Virus record (IMG/VR): IMGVR_UViG_3300043466_000118
Location: 1 to 24,012 of that record
Strand: one strand, 5' to 3'
Length of the DNA: 24,012 nt
From: a virus
The position numbers and the translations under genes were made by a program. Below the pieces are notes generated by a model, which saw only the letters and a list, made by a program, of their open reading frames with translations, ran no database searches and was not told where the DNA came from. Shown here one piece after another: positions 2,673 through 24,012 of this stretch (the stretch's first letter is position 1; the number at the start of each line of letters is the position of its first letter).

Positions 2673-3020
2673 ATGGCTGGAATAGATAATTTAGTACACT
2701 TTGAAAAAGGGCAATCTGGTAATCCAAATGGTCGACCTAAAGGAGTTCAAAACTCAAAGACTCGTTTACTTAGATTGCTTGAATTAGTACAAAAGAAAAG
2801 AAATCCAATTACAGGCGAAGAAGAAGATTTTACTGTGCTTGAGTTAATGGATATGCAAATGATATCAAAAGCATTAAGAGGCGACCAAAGGGCATATGAG
2901 GCAGTAGTTGATAGATTAGAGGGTAAACCAAAGCAAACCACCGACATCACCGCTGACATTAAGGGTAATGTGCAAATCACAATAGAACCAGATGCAGATT
3001 GTCAACCAATTAAAGATTAA
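2673..3020 (+). CDS. Putative small terminase subunit (DUF5681-like)
   Basis: 115 aa from ATG 2673. A GTG at 2640 in the same frame would overlap the previous gene and adds an unconvincing N-terminus. The N-terminal motif G-Q-S-G-N-P-N-G-R-P-K-G (13-24) is the hallmark of DUF5681-type proteins, which in phages commonly stand directly before the large terminase. A helix rich in Leu and Arg follows, then an acidic E-E-E-D stretch and a helical segment ending in V-V-D-R-L-E-G-K-P. The end overlaps the terminase start by 29 bases. It would recognise phage DNA and present it to the ATPase. The function is inferred from position and the N-terminal motif. Confidence 0.7.
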   Translation: MAGIDNLVHFEKGQSGNPNGRPKGVQNSKTRLLRLLELVQKKRNPITGEEEDFTVLELMDMQMISKALRGDQRAYEAVVDRLEGKPKQTTDITADIKGNVQITIEPDADCQPIKD

Positions 3021-4158
3021 GGCTACACCTGTCTTTTATGCCAATAAAAAGGCATACGAGGATGGTTATCCTATAATATGCAATGAAGGTGGGTCAAGGT
3101 CAAGCAAAAGTTATTCGGTTGTTCAATTGTTAATTCACATAGCTTTAACCAAACCAAATACAAGGATTTCGTGCGTTTCTCATTCGCTACCACATATTAA
3201 GCGTGGAGTTTATAGAGATTTCAAAGGTATTATGGAGCAATGGAACATCTGGGATGAAAAGGATTTTCGGTATACTGATTTTATTTATACATTTAAGAAT
3301 GGCTCATACATTGAATTATTTGGATTAGAAGACCCAGATAAAGCAAAAGGACCAGCAAGGGATATACTATTTGTAAACGAGGCAAACCTTATTAGTAAGG
3401 CTTTGTTTGACCAGCTTTTGATTCGTACAACTGGACAATCATTCTTAGACTGGAATCCAGCCGACTTTATTTCTTGGGTTTACGAGGTAGCTGATAACCC
3501 AAAGAACAAGCGCATACATTCTACCTACCTAAACAACATAAGTAACTTAAGCGAAAGCCAAATAAGAAACATCGAGCAGTACAAAGACTTGCCAGATGAC
3601 TTTATGTGGAAAGTTTACGGATTAGGAGAACGAGGTTCAGCAAAGGAAATTATATACACTCAATGGAAACAATACGATGAAGCACCAGATGGGGATGTGT
3701 TCTATGGATTGGATTTTGGTTATGTCCATCCAGCTGCACTTATAAAGGTTACACACTATGAAGGACAAAACTACTTTGAGGAAATAGTTTACCAAAGCGG
3801 ATTGACTTTAAGCGACTTATCAAGATTGATTAAGGAGAAACTACCAGAACGAGCAACAATCTATGCGGATGCAGCCGAGCCTAAATCTATTGAGGAACTT
3901 TACCGACAAGGCTTTAACATTAAACCAGCGCAAAAGGATGTATGGGCAGGAATTGTAAAGATGAAGTCTTATCCAATAAACTTGCACTACAATAGCAAAA
4001 ACTTAAGAAGGGAGTTTATGTCTTACAAATGGAAAAAGGATAAAAACGATAATGTAATAGAAGAACCTGTAAAGGCAAATGATGACTTGATGGATGCTTG
4101 TAGGTATGCCGTATTTACGCATTTAACCAAGCCTAAATTTGAGGTGTCGGTATTTTAG
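2992..4158 (+). CDS. terL: Terminase large subunit
   Basis: A 388-aa packaging motor protein with both catalytic halves. The ATPase half has a Walker A-like G-G-S-R-S-S-K-S (33-40), a Walker B hydrophobic strand ending D-I-L-F-V-N-E-A-N (124-132) and the coupling motif L-D-W-N-P (152-156). The nuclease half (RNase H-like) shows G-L-D-F-G (239-243, D241), Y-A-D-A-A (291-295, D293) and D-D-L-M-D-A (364-369, D368) as metal-binding acids. The arrangement is that of PBSX/Terminase_3-type large subunits, and the length is normal. It would translocate DNA into the prohead through the portal encoded next and cut the concatemer. It overlaps the small-subunit candidate by 29 bases, suggesting coupling. 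Confidence 0.95.
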   Translation: MQIVNQLKIKATPVFYANKKAYEDGYPIICNEGGSRSSKSYSVVQLLIHIALTKPNTRISCVSHSLPHIKRGVYRDFKGIMEQWNIWDEKDFRYTDFIYTFKNGSYIELFGLEDPDKAKGPARDILFVNEANLISKALFDQLLIRTTGQSFLDWNPADFISWVYEVADNPKNKRIHSTYLNNISNLSESQIRNIEQYKDLPDDFMWKVYGLGERGSAKEIIYTQWKQYDEAPDGDVFYGLDFGYVHPAALIKVTHYEGQNYFEEIVYQSGLTLSDLSRLIKEKLPERATIYADAAEPKSIEELYRQGFNIKPAQKDVWAGIVKMKSYPINLHYNSKNLRREFMSYKWKKDKNDNVIEEPVKANDDLMDACRYAVFTHLTKPKFEVSVF

Positions 4159-20190: not shown

Positions 20191-20212
20191 AATAAAATAA
20201 AATAAAATAAAA
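20188..20212 (+). repeat. (TAAAA)5 tandem repeat forming the leader of the next gene
   Basis: Five perfect copies run from the stop codon of the preceding gene to the base before ATG 20213. The repeat serves as an A-rich initiation region. Copy-number change would alter the leader length without touching the reading frame. Confidence 0.85.
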
Positions 20213-20557
20213 ATGAAAACAATTCAACCAGTCTCAATATGGGACAATGGACAAAACTTACAGGCTACATTATTAAATGCTTATGCCGTAAACGTAACTT
20301 TAGGAACAAGTGCTACTTTTTACTACGCTTTATTTGCTGAAAATGCAGATGGTAGTCAAGGTACTCAAGTTGCACAAGGTAATCTTAATATGACAGGCGA
20401 AGCCTATGCACAATGGACTATTGATTCTTATGCTTGGGATTGGGTAGCTGCTCAACTTAATTTAACAATCACAGGTGATTATGTACCACCAGTACCTCCT
20501 CAACCAGAGCCAACTCCAGAACCAATTGTTGAAGAAAATATAGAAGAATCAATTTAA
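20213..20557 (+). CDS. Small tail/adhesion accessory protein with Pro/Glu-rich tail
   Basis: 114 aa. Residues 1-88 look like a single beta-sandwich (I-W-D-N-G, A-T-F-Y-Y-A-L-F-A, W-T-I-D-S-Y-A-W-D-W-V). From 90 the chain turns into a Pro/Glu/Gln-rich flexible stretch and an acidic end. It lies last in the tail-tip group and just before the lysis genes. I do not recognise a named family. A structural or adhesion role is inferred from neighbours. The TAAAA repeat forms its leader. Confidence 0.6.
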   Translation: MKTIQPVSIWDNGQNLQATLLNAYAVNVTLGTSATFYYALFAENADGSQGTQVAQGNLNMTGEAYAQWTIDSYAWDWVAAQLNLTITGDYVPPVPPQPEPTPEPIVEENIEESI

Positions 20558-20570
20558 TTCAATATTTAAC

Positions 20571-20578
20571 TATATTTG
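20571..20578 (+). promoter_or_regulatory. Candidate -7 box TATATTTG at the start of the lysis group
   Basis: This matches TAnnTTTG in the 38-base gap after the tail genes, with an A-rich leader and the ATG 17 bases after the last G. No -33 TTG is at the right distance. The position suggests a separate transcript for lysis genes. Confidence 0.4.
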
Positions 20579-20595
20579 TATATAAAATAAAAACT

Positions 20596-20739
20596 ATGAT
20601 AACAATTAATCAAGAACAAATCAAGGAATTAGAAGCGTTTATTAACACTATCCCAACTGCTTATGGTTTACCATTATTGCAATTTTTGGGTAAGTTAAAC
20701 GCAGAGCAAAATCCACCACAAGAAACAACTGAAGCGTAA
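20596..20739 (+). CDS. 47-aa small protein at the start of the lysis group
   Basis: ATG 20596 to TAA 20737-20739, the last A being the start of the next ATG. A predicted helix of Glu/Gln/Lys-rich sequence leads to I-P-T-A-Y-G-L-P-L-L-Q-F-L, then a hydrophilic Pro/Gln/Glu end. It has no clear membrane segment. Function is unknown. The case for it rests on the upstream promoter-like box and the tight coupling to the membrane protein gene behind it. Confidence 0.55.
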   Translation: MITINQEQIKELEAFINTIPTAYGLPLLQFLGKLNAEQNPPQETTEA

Positions 20740-20912
20740 TGGTACATAATAGCAATCAATCGGACTTGTTAACTATTCTTAGCGGTACAACCGCATTTAT
20801 TAGTGTTGTAAATGTGCAACCAGTAGTTAGTCTTATAGCGAGTTTGATTGCTATTGTTTCTGGTCTTTTTGCTATTCGTTATTACATTAAGGCAGCTAAA
20901 AGATTTAAGTAA
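20739..20912 (+). CDS. 57-aa two-segment membrane protein, holin-like
   Basis: Two hydrophobic stretches (about 10-26 and 29-47) are separated by a short N-V-Q-P turn, with a basic end (K-A-A-K-R-F-K). This is the topology of small class II holins: a short N-terminus, two membrane helices, a charged C-terminus. It is coupled to both neighbours by shared stop and start bases. Size and context allow a holin, but a second candidate lies at 22357. Confidence 0.6.
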   Translation: MVHNSNQSDLLTILSGTTAFISVVNVQPVVSLIASLIAIVSGLFAIRYYIKAAKRFK

Positions 20913-21460
20913 TGTATAAGAATATTGTAATAGCAATTTTGGTTATTATAGTATTTCTTTTCATTAAGGATAAATCTTCATACATAGGTCAACCATCGGT
21001 TATTATAGATACGGACACAGTTTACCAACAGAAAACTTTTACAAAGTACATCAAAGGGAAATCAATCCCTTTTGTCGTTTTAGACACAACCTACCTTATT
21101 GATGAAGTTCACGATACAATTACAATCGTTAAGGACTATAACCAAGTAAAGGTTTATTCCGATACTATGCGTATAGATTCATTGGGATACGCATACATCC
21201 AAGATACAATAAGCCAAAATAAGATACAAGGCAGAGGATTTAGTGCCAATTTTAACCTTCCTACTATAACAATTACCAAAGTAATTACACCAAAGCCTAA
21301 AAGCGAGGTTTATTTGGGTGTTTTAGGCGATTTAAGGGCATTTGACAATAAAGTAGGCTTAGGACTTGGTCTTGGGTATAAAACGGCTAAAAACGGCTTA
21401 TTTACAATAAACGCAACTACTAATCATTATTCATTAGGTTACTATAAAAAATTATTCTAA
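20912..21460 (+). CDS. Membrane-anchored envelope protein with D-T repeats
   Basis: 182 aa. One membrane helix at about 4-18 (I-V-I-A-I-L-V-I-I-V-F-L-F) is followed by a periplasmic region with regularly spaced D-T pairs (I-D-T-D-T-V, L-D-T-T-Y, H-D-T-I-T, S-D-T-M, Q-D-T-I), probably a beta structure. The C-terminal 50 residues alternate in hydrophobicity with Gly (V-G-L-G-L-G-L-G-Y) and end in Phe, as outer-membrane strands do. This resembles DUF6808-like proteins from Bacteroidota phages as far as I can judge. A role in bridging the envelope during lysis is possible but unproven. Confidence 0.6.
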   Translation: MYKNIVIAILVIIVFLFIKDKSSYIGQPSVIIDTDTVYQQKTFTKYIKGKSIPFVVLDTTYLIDEVHDTITIVKDYNQVKVYSDTMRIDSLGYAYIQDTISQNKIQGRGFSANFNLPTITITKVITPKPKSEVYLGVLGDLRAFDNKVGLGLGLGYKTAKNGLFTINATTNHYSLGYYKKLF

Positions 21461-21461
21461 A

Positions 21462-21731
21462 ATGGCTTTACCTGTATCATTTAAAGACTTCGCAAAGAAT
21501 CCTGTTGTAGCTACTTTATTTATCGTTCTATGTGGAATATCTGCATTGTATATTGATGTTCGTTCTACGTTTAAAGACCAAATCACAAGCCAAGCGGTTA
21601 AAGTGCAGAAATTAGATGAAAAGGTTGACATTATGCAATTGGCTTTAAGAAGATGTGATTCATCTTTGGCATCTGCAACCGCTAAATTAAGCACACTTGA
21701 AAGTTTAGGCAAAATTCAATCTATTAAGTAA
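21462..21731 (+). CDS. Membrane plus coiled-coil protein, inner-membrane spanin-like
   Basis: 89 aa. The N-terminal tail is basic, with one membrane helix at about 14-31 (P-V-V-A-T-L-F-I-V-L-C-G-I-S-A-L). The rest is a helix with heptad-like spacing (V-x-x-L-D-E-K-V-D-I-M-Q-L-A-L, then L-A-S-A-T-A-K-L-S-T-L-E-S-L). An N-anchored helix reaching into the periplasm is the plan of inner-membrane spanins. The next gene, one base away, encodes an exported and possibly lipid-modified coiled-coil protein. A function as a spanin pair is inference. Confidence 0.55.
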   Translation: MALPVSFKDFAKNPVVATLFIVLCGISALYIDVRSTFKDQITSQAVKVQKLDEKVDIMQLALRRCDSSLASATAKLSTLESLGKIQSIK

Positions 21732-22057
21732 TGAAATACTTATTATTTATATTTTTAATGGGGTGTACTGCATCTGCTCAAAACCAAAGCGAGGAAACAA
21801 AAGAAGACATTGAGTTCCAAAAGTTAATGAATAAGGTAACTCAAACGAATAATTTGTCGGTACAAGTACAAGCAAAGGCGAGTAAAAAAGAAGCGGAATT
21901 GGTACAAAAGGCGGTTGAAACTATTAAGGAATTAAAAAGTGAAGTTACAATATTAAAAACGGAATTAAACGATGTTAAAGCAACTTTGGATAGTGTTAGT
22001 AATGATTCTGGTATCAGTTTCAAGTTACTCCCAATATCCGATAATAAAAAAAATTAA
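21731..22057 (+). CDS. Exported, possibly lipid-modified coiled-coil protein
   Basis: 108 aa. A signal peptide (1-12) ends L-M-G-C, close to the lipobox L-x-[GA]-C, so Cys12 may be lipid-modified; cleavage after A-S-A by signal peptidase I is the alternative. The mature chain is acidic and helical, with a clear coiled coil about 50-92 (A-V-E-T-I-K-E-L-K-S-E-V-T-I-L-K). This is compatible with an outer-membrane spanin subunit. The last 86 bases also encode the start of the next gene in another frame. Confidence 0.6.
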   Translation: MKYLLFIFLMGCTASAQNQSEETKEDIEFQKLMNKVTQTNNLSVQVQAKASKKEAELVQKAVETIKELKSEVTILKTELNDVKATLDSVSNDSGISFKLLPISDNKKN

Positions 22058-22355
22058 ACAAGATTCGGTTGTTATTATGACCATTGAGCAAGGCAAAGAA
22101 ATAAACGCTTTGTATTTAGGTTATAACAAGACAATAGATTCATTACAAATTAAAACAAGATATTATGATTCAGCAATTAATCAAATTAGTAAAAAGCAAG
22201 ATACAATCAACCTTTACAGATATCATATCGAAAATATTAAACCAGCCACAGGAATTGACCAAGAGTTCAAAGAAGCCTTCGAGAAAGAAAAAGGCATAAA
22301 TAGACTTTGGACATTGATGTTGTTTATGGCATTAGTACTTATTAAAACACAATAA
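21972..22355 (+). CDS. Exported protein with C-terminal membrane segment
   Basis: 127 aa from ATG 21972. This start gives a convincing signal peptide (W-I-V-L-V-M-I-L-V-S-V-S-S-Y-S), whereas ATG 22002 would leave too short an N-terminus. It therefore overlaps the upstream gene by 86 bases in another frame. The middle is helical with D-S and Q-I-S-K-K-Q-D segments. The end has a single membrane helix (L-W-T-L-M-L-F-M-A-L-V-L-I) and stays in the inner membrane. A signal peptide with a C-terminal membrane anchor recalls unimolecular spanins, but no lipobox cysteine is present. Confidence 0.6.
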   Translation: MLKQLWIVLVMILVSVSSYSQYPIIKKIKQDSVVIMTIEQGKEINALYLGYNKTIDSLQIKTRYYDSAINQISKKQDTINLYRYHIENIKPATGIDQEFKEAFEKEKGINRLWTLMLFMALVLIKTQ

Positions 22356-22356
22356 A

Positions 22357-22587
22357 ATGAAATGGATAGCAAATTTATTAAGCGATGAAAGAGGTTCAAT
22401 TAGCACTAAAAGGGTAATAGCTTTAATGAGTGCTTTATTTTTATGTATTACTTTATTGGCTAATTCATTTAGCCACGTTGAAGTAGCACCAAGCGACAAA
22501 CTTGTTGACTGCGTTATGGCTATTTGCATAGCTGCAATGGGTACAAGTACTATTGATAAATTCTCAACTAAGAAGGATGCCGAATAA
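22357..22587 (+). CDS. Holin-like two-helix membrane protein
   Basis: 76 aa. An amphipathic start (W-I-A-N-L-L-S-D-E-R-G-S-I-S-T-K-R) leads to a first membrane helix (V-I-A-L-M-S-A-L-F-L-C-I-T-L-L-A), a polar loop with P-S-D-K-L-V-D, a second helix (V-M-A-I-C-I-A-A-M-G) and a charged end with D-K-F. This layout, directly before the peptidoglycan hydrolase genes, is what I expect of a Bacteroidota phage holin, which would open the inner membrane at the set time. It is the better holin candidate of the two. Confidence 0.7.
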   Translation: MKWIANLLSDERGSISTKRVIALMSALFLCITLLANSFSHVEVAPSDKLVDCVMAICIAAMGTSTIDKFSTKKDAE

Positions 22588-22660
22588 CGAAAAAAGAGCA
22601 TTTGCAATTGGATTTACCTTATGGGTAATATTATTAACTTATTTTTTTTATAACGTATGA
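22577..22660 (+). CDS. 27-aa membrane peptide
   Basis: ATG 22577, preceded by AGAAGG, runs to TGA 22660, which overlaps the next start as ATGA. It begins inside the holin-like gene's last codons. After a polar start of seven residues comes one hydrophobic helix with many aromatics. It could be a lysis regulator (antiholin- or pinholin-like) or just a coupling peptide that helps translate the hydrolase gene. Its small size keeps confidence low. Confidence 0.45.
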   Translation: MPNNEKRAFAIGFTLWVILLTYFFYNV

Positions 22661-23121
22661 AACTATCACAACACTTATCATTAAGCGAGGTTACTCGTAG
22701 CGAGTCAGCAAAAAGAAACGGAATAAGTAATATGCCTACAGAACAGCATATTGCTAATTTCAAGTTATTAGCAGAAAAAGTATTTGAGCCTGTTAGAGTT
22801 CACTTTGGAGTACCTATTCATATATCCAGTGCTTACAGGTCTATTGAACTTAATCGTGTGGTGAAGGGAAGTTTGACCAGTCAGCATTGCACAGGTGAAG
22901 CGATTGACGTGGATATGGATGGTTCTCCAAGCGGTGTAACTAATAAAATGGTATTTAATTACATTAAAGATAATCTTGAATTTGACCAATTAATCTGGGA
23001 ATTTGGAACAAAAGAAAATCCAGATTGGGTTCACGTTTCTTATGAATCAACAGGCAGACAAAGAAAGCAAGTATTAAGAGCAGTTAGGGCAAATGGTAAA
23101 ACAACCTACCAAAACTACTAA
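22657..23121 (+). CDS. Peptidase M15-family endolysin
   Basis: 154 aa. It matches the M15A (D-Ala-D-Ala carboxypeptidase-like) group: an N-terminal helix, a strand with I-H-I-S-S-A-Y-R-S (54-62), S-Q-H-C-T-G-E-A-I-D (75-84) providing zinc ligands H77 and D84, and W-V-H-V-S-Y (124-129) providing H126. It would cut peptide cross-links in peptidoglycan. No signal peptide is present, so release through a holin is expected, agreeing with the holin-like genes upstream. A second hydrolase gene follows one base after its stop. Confidence 0.9.
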   Translation: MKLSQHLSLSEVTRSESAKRNGISNMPTEQHIANFKLLAEKVFEPVRVHFGVPIHISSAYRSIELNRVVKGSLTSQHCTGEAIDVDMDGSPSGVTNKMVFNYIKDNLEFDQLIWEFGTKENPDWVHVSYESTGRQRKQVLRAVRANGKTTYQNY

Positions 23122-23122
23122 T

Positions 23123-23716
23123 ATGATTCCCAAAAAGGCTATTGAACTAATTATCAAACACGAGGTTGGAGGTAGAGCCGTTTATGAACGCAGATACCAA
23201 AAACCTATCTTAACCGAGAACGGAGTAGTTATTGGAATAGGATACAATTTGAGTGAGGTTAGGGATAATAAATTCTTTAGCGATTGGGATGGCTTAAATT
23301 TAAACTTCTTACACGCATTAAGGAAAGTGGTCGGTATAAAAGGTGAAGCCGTTAAATCAATGATGCGAGGCGAAATACTACAAGTTAGGATTCCGTACAA
23401 TTTTGCATACGATGTATTCGTTAATAAGTCGCTACCTAAGTATTATGCAATGACTAAGGCAATTTACCCAGAATTAGACAATTTAAACGAGGACACAAGA
23501 GGTGCTTTGGTTTCAATGATTTATAACAGAGGGAACAAGTTAGATGGCGATAGTCGAAAGGAAATGAGGGCAATAGTTGACCTTGTGGCAAAAGCGGATT
23601 ACGAGGGCATTGCCGACCAAATAGAACGCAGTAAAAGGCTATGGGAAAATGGATTAGATGGATTGGTCAAACGCAGAGAAGAAGAAGCAGATTTGATACT
23701 AAACTCACTAACCTAA
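23123..23716 (+). CDS. Lysozyme-like muramidase (pesticin / T4-lysozyme-like)
   Basis: 197 aa from ATG 23123, one base after the previous stop. An in-frame ATG at 23093 would overlap that gene by 29 bases. The N-terminus has I-I-K-H-E-V-G-G, with Glu14 as the likely acid, followed by G-V-V-I-G-I-G-Y-N-L, the strand loop found in pesticin-type and T4-like lysozymes. A large helical lobe with A-L-V-S-M-I-Y-N-R-G matches the substrate-cleft helix (A-L-x-S-x-x-Y-N-x-G). It should split the glycan strand, complementing the M15 peptidase. No signal peptide is seen. Confidence 0.82.
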   Translation: MIPKKAIELIIKHEVGGRAVYERRYQKPILTENGVVIGIGYNLSEVRDNKFFSDWDGLNLNFLHALRKVVGIKGEAVKSMMRGEILQVRIPYNFAYDVFVNKSLPKYYAMTKAIYPELDNLNEDTRGALVSMIYNRGNKLDGDSRKEMRAIVDLVAKADYEGIADQIERSKRLWENGLDGLVKRREEEADLILNSLT

Positions 23717-23725
23717 AATAAACCT

Positions 23726-24012
23726 ATGGCAACAACAAAAAACAAAGGCGGAAGCAAAACCACAATGAGTGGAAAAATAGTCTTGGACTATTTAGCTAAA
23801 TATCCTCAATGGATGCCTTCTAACACTTTAGCTTCTTTGATTATGAAGGAGCAAAGCGCACACTTTGACAATCAAGAGAATGTTAGATACTTGATAAGAT
23901 ATTACAGGGGTAAGGCAGGAGAAACTAAAAGTGTAAGAGGTGTAAACAAGCAATTTGTAGAAGATTTTAAACGTACAGGCTCACACTTTGTGCAACCGCC
24001 TACTTGGGTAGA
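23726..24012 (+). CDS. Unknown protein, N-terminal 95 residues, cut by the window edge
   Basis: ATG 23726 opens a frame with no stop up to the right edge. After a flexible Thr/Lys/Gly-rich start the segment is helical: I-V-L-D-Y-L-A-K-Y-P, M-P-S-N-T-L-A-S-L-I, V-R-Y-L-I-R-Y-Y-R-G-K-A-G. A small helix-turn-helix-like domain ending R-Y-Y-R-G-x-x-G occurs at the start of some phage proteins that continue into a metallophosphoesterase or nuclease. Whether that is so here depends on the missing part. The gene would start a new functional group after lysis. Confidence 0.6.
   Translation, partial: MATTKNKGGSKTTMSGKIVLDYLAKYPQWMPSNTLASLIMKEQSAHFDNQENVRYLIRYYRGKAGETKSVRGVNKQFVEDFKRTGSHFVQPPTWV

Follow-up and report, generated by a model that had tools for sequence, protein, structure and literature searches.

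We describe a fixed dual-coding overlap in the late lysis cassette of a sizeable group of uncultivated phages of the Bacteroidota type, in which the same DNA encodes the end of an exported protein, l731, and, in a second reading frame, the signal peptide of the protein encoded downstream, s972. Comparison of related sequences demonstrates that both the dual coding and the position of the s972 start are conserved. With moderate confidence, we consider it most likely that i462, l731 and s972, encoded consecutively in this cassette, constitute a spanin-like bridge. The window, meaning the whole stretch of DNA that was analysed, comprises 24,012 nucleotides of the IMG/VR virus record IMGVR_UViG_3300043466_000118, and the cassette genes discussed here lie on its plus strand.

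In the window, l731 (21731–22057) and s972 (21972–22355) share exactly the 86 nt from 21972 to 22057, with s972 in the +1 frame relative to l731. Frame 0 of this stretch contains the last 28 codons of l731 and its stop codon, and the +1 frame contains the s972 signal peptide and the first mature residues. The preliminary description had placed the s972 start 86 nt inside the previous gene, and these coordinates are confirmed. Read from the ATG at 21972–21974, the N-terminus of s972 is MLKQLWIVLVMILVSVSSYSQYP, which combines a Lys-bearing n-region, a hydrophobic core and the cleavage-like motif SYS↓QYP. The codons in frame ahead of this ATG are TAA and ACG, so that a longer s972 N-terminus starting from ATG, GTG or TTG is impossible. 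The tail of l731 within the overlap, DVKATLDSVSNDSGISFKLLPISDNKKN, contains four Asp and four Lys residues; it is neutral because the former are balanced by the latter, and its earlier designation as an acidic C-terminus was wrong.

Relatives were collected from IMG/VR by a first scan of 45 loci, to which further loci were added by profile scans with l731, s972 and i462 and then by wider s972 scans. The wider scans contributed the best 80 of 259, the best 80 of 98 and the best 80 of 145 relatives, so that the resulting 141 distinct s972 loci represent a sample. Recruitment is biased in that the QYP search motif falls inside the overlap and was the sole motif in the s972 scan with 98 relatives; the other s972 scans also used motifs outside the overlap, and two further scans queried l731 and i462. 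Identical stretches were merged in the 141-locus set and in a set of 76 distinct l731–s972 stretches, and a close-group listing comprises the window and 46 loci, duplicates included. The 141-locus set omits nine loci in which s972 runs off the contig end, four of which (L089, L119, L197 and L274) are one contig, and it retains L046 despite an interrupted s972, of which 45 aa were read. One of the 141 loci has no measurable l731 start (n = 140), and removal of L252, cut by a contig end, leaves the 139 loci used for synonymous-pair and frame-openness counts.

In all 76 distinct stretches, the two genes overlap by 77–92 nt in phase +1, and an in-frame TAA is located zero or one codon ahead of the s972 start. 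The overlap measures 77–95 nt in every one of the 141 sampled loci, the phase is +1 in all 140 measurable loci, and the in-frame stop upstream of the s972 start is zero or one codon away in 138 loci and four to five codons away in three. These s972 sequences form 62 clusters at 90% identity, 25 at 70%, 13 at 50% and 6 at 40%; l731 was found in 141 and i462 in 139 of the 141 loci. Relatives of s972 that lack the overlap and carry a separate signal peptide were searched for, and none was present among the sampled loci.

Outside IMG/VR, a search of genome contigs yielded a single relative; its contig (L205, positions 1–2600) bears the title Candidatus Taylorbacteria, carries the same cassette with an 89-nt l731/s972 overlap and is probably a mis-binned phage contig. 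INPHARED contained neither a DNA match to 20500–23720 nor a match to s972, and a distant s972 query returned a single match at E 0.8. One i462-like match was obtained from INPHARED, in a 634-kb uncultured phage (L206), and a distant i462 query led to the same record. At positions 3001–3814 of this locus, an i462-like 74-aa gene is followed by a 198-aa membrane coiled-coil-like gene; l731 and s972 were looked for in this phage and neither was recognised. In L034 and L037, the small membrane protein encoded after s972 is a distant form (~35% identity), b912 and the first holin-like gene are ~47–50% identical, and i462, l731, s972 and the M15 gene are 81–97% identical, a mosaic that suggests modular exchange.

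We compared synonymous change inside and outside the overlap for both reading frames. All-pairs counts repeat shared history many times, and we therefore also used 62 disjoint pairs drawn from the 139 loci. For l731, these pairs show synonymous change at 105/1461 inside the overlap versus 753/4462 outside, with 255 expected inside after amino-acid matching (Fisher P 2e-22), and for s972 at 108/1324 inside versus 791/4939 outside, with 211 expected inside (P 1.5e-14), where the P values are rough because the codons of one pair are not independent trials. Synonymous change is thus approximately halved in both frames over 21972–22057, and it is lower inside the overlap in 55 of 62 pairs for l731 and in 53 of 62 for s972. 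The all-pairs count for l731 falls from 0.250 synonymous differences per same-amino-acid pair outside to 0.080 inside among the 40 close-group sequences (P 5e-5 by codon permutation, the lowest value attainable with 20,000 permutations), and from 0.356 to 0.196 over all 76 stretches, where the overlap is the lowest sliding window. The all-pairs count for s972 shows no drop inside the overlap, neither in the close group (0.125 outside, 0.145 inside) nor over all 76 stretches (0.273 and 0.274). Both frames appear to be constrained in the overlap, that of l731 more clearly. Together with a start 77 to 95 nt before the l731 stop end in every sampled locus, this upholds the earlier proposal of a single stretch of DNA that specifies the end of one exported protein as well as the signal for secreting the following one.

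The arrangement is far from chance, as judged from the sequences. The +1 frame is open across the overlap in 139 of 139 loci, whereas in 116 of the 139 it is interrupted by a stop when 28 codons of the l731 body are read instead, and the +2 frame is closed within the overlap in all 139. Random synonymous recoding of l731 tails from 13 representatives produced a start and an open signal-like frame in 0.3–15% of recodings per representative; all 13 real sequences possess both. Among 31 window genes examined, l731 is the only one with a signal-like end overlap of such size; the gene at 23093–23716, also among the 31, has an open overlapping start, but this start is not hydrophobic.

The 127-aa protein s972 is predicted to consist of a signal peptide, a beta-hairpin (residues 24–35), a long helix (38–89) and a C-terminal hydrophobic helix (96–126). 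The predicted signal peptide, MLKQLWIVLVMILVSVSSYS, is encoded by 21972–22031, and cleavage would follow residue 20. Lys or Arg occurs at residues 2–6 in all 141 loci, with a best 10-residue hydropathy of at least 2.35; 139 of the 141 proteins contain QYP among their first 30 residues, and Gln occupies residue 21 or 22 in all 76 distinct stretches. Signal peptidase I (SPase I) has a preference for Gln at +1. No lipobox is present in s972: where a Cys directly precedes QYP, it follows Tyr or Phe, not Gly, Ala or Ser, and the window has no such Cys. The AlphaFold2 model (mean pLDDT 68.6, pTM 0.22) contains the signal helix, the hairpin, the long helix and the C-terminal helix. TM segments were assigned by hydropathy, and the C-terminal hydrophobic stretch reaches a median of 2.35 with a weak minimum of 0.58. 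With its signal peptide and this C-terminal segment, s972 is probably a type I (N-out, C-in) inner-membrane protein. A fold search against BFVD gave one match with E ≤ 0.001, an uncharacterised protein of an uncultured phage, and sequence comparison with PDB entries gave no match at E ≤ 0.01.

The upstream partner l731 (108 aa) is exported and coiled-coil-like, and in the window it carries a lipobox-like LMGC (Cys12), which points to an outer-membrane lipoprotein. The lipobox pattern occurs in 104 of 140 l731 sequences, a plain signal peptide of three N-terminal types in 35, and the remaining one (L252) is cut by the contig end. No substitute lipobox ORF was found within −1.5 to +2.5 kb of the 35 lipobox-less loci, which belong to lineages represented by L116, L122, L124, L125, L128, loci within L207–L226, L263, L266 and loci within L323–L337. 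In the three examples compared (L116, L263 and L328), i462 has a different C-terminal part, and l731 and i462 look as if they had changed together in these lineages. The gene i462 (21462–21731) encodes an N-terminal hydrophobic segment, clear by eye and a putative TM, followed by a coiled-coil-like part, and resembles an i-spanin gene. A 1-nt overlap joins the i462 stop to the l731 start in the window and in 86 of 141 loci. A Cys after the TM of i462 is found in 102 of 137 loci, and in 32 of 137 none of the proteins i462, l731 and s972 contributes a periplasmic Cys; two loci were skipped in this count and two without the TM anchor pattern were left out. Usually upstream of i462 lies b912 (20912–21460), modelled at low confidence (pLDDT 42.8) with a TM helix at the N-terminus and, at the C-terminus, four strands that end in Phe, a last residue found in 58 of 130; according to this model, b912 could extend to the outer membrane in the manner of an OMP. 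None of the cassette proteins gave a convincing match to a spanin family, the best being single-member PHROG matches at E ~2.5e-4, and the same l731 set matches head scaffolding families equally well, as coiled coils do.

The l731/s972 pair is located between holin-like and endolysin genes. Upstream, a holin-like small membrane protein (20739–20912) matches phrog_33315, of unknown function, at E 2.3e-4 and, weakly, the holin family phrog_1350 at E 0.0095. Downstream, a small membrane protein (22357–22587) is holin-like by sequence and position only, with no PHROG match and no Pfam match better than E 0.022, and is followed by an M15-family peptidase endolysin (22657–23121; phrog_894 endolysin 1.2e-33, PF08291 2.6e-18) and a phage lysozyme-type endolysin (23093–23716; phrog_7 3e-7, PF00959 4.7e-7). 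The latter two, in tandem over 22657–23716, overlap by 29 nt as called, and an in-frame ATG at 23123 would remove this overlap. Promoter-like sites within 20200–23800 are not in excess (12 versus a shuffle mean of 15.6); four terminator-like sites were found versus a shuffle mean of 1.9, none of them within the overlap. The Bacteroidota −7 promoter box has the consensus TAnnTTTG, and TATATTTG at 20571–20578, upstream of the cassette, resembles it. A terminase-like protein (2992–4158) matches 783 phage records from many hosts, all below 60% identity, the best 20 being Bacteroides phages at ~39%, and the virus group appears to infect Bacteroidota. Phage B40-8 has Bacteroides as its host. For this phage, PMC6139136 mentions a separated spanin pair, whereas a 2025 survey states that Bacteroidetes phages use unimolecular spanins exclusively (PMC12596118).

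Comparison with known spanins brings out likenesses and differences. According to PMC6139136, 228 of 528 two-component spanins are overlapped, the overlap measuring 70 bp in T5, and a figure legend states that the shared DNA encodes the o-spanin signal sequence; at least one periplasmic Cys is reported in 507 of the 528 pairs, and set beside this the 32 of 137 loci that lack one tell against a spanin-like role. Like l731/s972, the overlapped spanins (P2; T5) combine an out-of-frame end overlap, shared DNA that provides the export signal of the second protein and a setting among lysis genes, which for spanins is frequent though not invariable, and in the overlapped families discussed in that paper the upstream C-terminus is variable, as it is here. 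The likeness to spanins raised in the preliminary description therefore stands as far as an end overlap carrying the signal of the second gene is concerned, but not for the usual Rz/Rz1 order: s972 has no lipobox, and l731/s972 is consequently not an Rz/Rz1-type pair in that order. The same description had set the overlap of ends alone apart from spanins, a contrast that disappears with the overlapped class, which does just that. Two arrangements in that source allow the difference to be specified further. In lambda, Rz1 is likewise an exported gene read in the +1 frame relative to Rz, the gene before it, but it lies embedded in Rz, whereas s972 shares only 86 of its 384 nt with l731. The T1 unimolecular spanin gp11 has a C-terminal TMD after a periplasmic domain, as proposed here for s972, but bears its own lipoprotein signal, whereas the lipobox is found on the neighbouring l731; s972 does not unite lipobox and C-terminal TMD, the mark of unimolecular spanins. 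In overlapped spanins the lipoprotein gene comes after that of the i-spanin. Here, it is the lipoprotein-like l731 that comes first, followed by s972, whose signal is of the SPase I type and whose TM is C-terminal, so that the pair has the end overlap and the endolysin neighbours of this class but no lipoprotein as its downstream member. Since overlapped spanins have already been described, the phenomenon as such is known, and what differs is that the order is reversed, that the downstream protein looks type I and that the overlap is invariant. A literature search at the level of titles and abstract openings returned no description of the cassette.

A spanin-like role of the cassette is likely on these sequence data, and we propose the following mechanism. 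Translation of s972 would begin at its own start within the l731 message, independently of l731, and cleavage at SYS↓QYP would remove the signal peptide. Mature s972 would be held in the inner membrane by its C-terminal anchor, with the hairpin and helix reaching into the periplasm; l731 would be an exported helical protein, in most lineages with a lipid anchor in the outer membrane, and i462 would provide a coiled coil fixed in the inner membrane in type II orientation. Together, the three proteins would form an inner-to-outer membrane bridge that completes lysis after holin and endolysins have acted. The overlap may save space and keep the l731–s972 pair together.

A less probable but serious alternative is that the overlap is dual-coding and reflects mere genome compaction, the envelope proteins acting as holin or endolysin regulators or as envelope modifiers. 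The 35 of 140 l731 sequences that have neither a lipobox nor a substitute lipoprotein nearby are in line with this alternative, as is the lack of a convincing spanin family match. It also gains from L202, which manages without s972. Among 365 loci, s972 is absent in 13, namely L202, the 634-kb phage and 11 loci cut there by the contig end, and L202 is the only l731-bearing relative without s972 that is not explained by a contig end. On this single contig, i462 and l731 are present, an ORF for a small membrane protein begins 8 nt ahead of the l731 end, a peptidase-like ORF (by eye) comes next, and the l731 tail is unlike all others, with a closed +1 frame. That the locus without s972 has a different tail and a closed frame in turn speaks for the dual-coding reading. 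L202 suggests that l731 can exist without s972. The converse, s972 without l731, was not seen in any of the 141 sampled loci; the signal peptide may therefore have been overprinted onto the l731 end, or s972 may have been lost in L202. Against compaction alone, none of the 141 sampled loci lacks the overlap, whereas separated members occur in some of the overlapped spanin families (PMC6139136), and the succession of inner-membrane protein, outer-membrane lipoprotein and inner-membrane protein beside endolysins would fit bridging better than regulation.

A start of s972 further downstream, at GTG 21993 (−65) or ATG 22002 (−56), would leave an overlap without a full signal peptide and make the upstream ATG a chance occurrence, which we regard as very improbable. 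Candidate codons for such a start are frequent: another in-frame ATG or GTG precedes QYP in 66 of the 76 distinct stretches, and 75 of 76 have one if TTG is counted. The remaining 10 of 76 have no other ATG or GTG before QYP, however, and with 9-nt shifts allowed for, L004, L005, L028, L034 and L035 lack the −56 ATG and L041–L043 lack the −65 GTG; starts at 22002 or 21993 were rejected because these codons are not conserved. Only the first ATG or GTG, at −77 to −95 relative to the l731 stop end, is present throughout (ATG in 114 and GTG in 27 of 141 loci), and it alone yields the Lys/Arg n-region and the full hydrophobic core, which speaks for 21972 as the start in place of 22002. In the close group, l731 N/K-D-V corresponds to an ATG at −86 (or −77) and l731 S-E-V/L to a GTG at −89 (or −80). 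One of these two start types is found in 46 of 47 rows, the remaining row being L046, read from its downstream piece only; in L004, L005, L035 and L039 the start is shifted by 9 nt and l731 is three residues shorter. The overlap is thus near-obligatory: the s972 start moves by one codon, from ATG to GTG, yet it is present in every sampled locus.

Least probable of all, and rejected, is programmed frameshifting that fuses l731 and s972 into a lipoprotein-to-TM (u-spanin-like) protein, for which the frames do overlap and an A run lies just before the l731 stop in the window, but an unbroken run of at least seven A occurs in only 5 of 32 distinct close-group rows, the shift required is +1 (or −2) and not −1, no conserved RNA structure is predicted across 13 sequences, no Rfam family was found in the window, and the conserved start codon, n-region and cleavage-like motif would be needless for a fusion.

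Returning to the spanin-like bridge, PMC6139136 considers that type I proteins carrying a C-terminal TMD might serve as i-spanins, and an OMP as an o-spanin; it raises the former possibility in a passage that gives no example. The topology proposed for s972 fits this suggestion of 2018, and s972 would be, to our knowledge, its first concrete candidate. More tentatively, and with a probability clearly below even, the three-part bridge could be a third spanin layout, in which s972 as the type I member acts together with a type II coiled coil and with the outer-membrane lipoprotein encoded upstream of it, and the signal peptide of s972 resides permanently in the 3′ end of the lipoprotein gene. 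If this holds, lineages without a lipid anchor on l731 would grip the outer membrane otherwise, perhaps via the C-terminal strands of b912. The same paper reports that gene callers are biased against overlaps, and overlap-averse callers may truncate s972 and lose its signal peptide. The cassette is common in IMG/VR, with 259 s972 relatives in one scan. Accounts of the way in which Bacteroidota phages get through the outer membrane are sparse, and the cassette would represent a candidate multi-protein alternative to the unimolecular spanins reported for them in PMC12596118.
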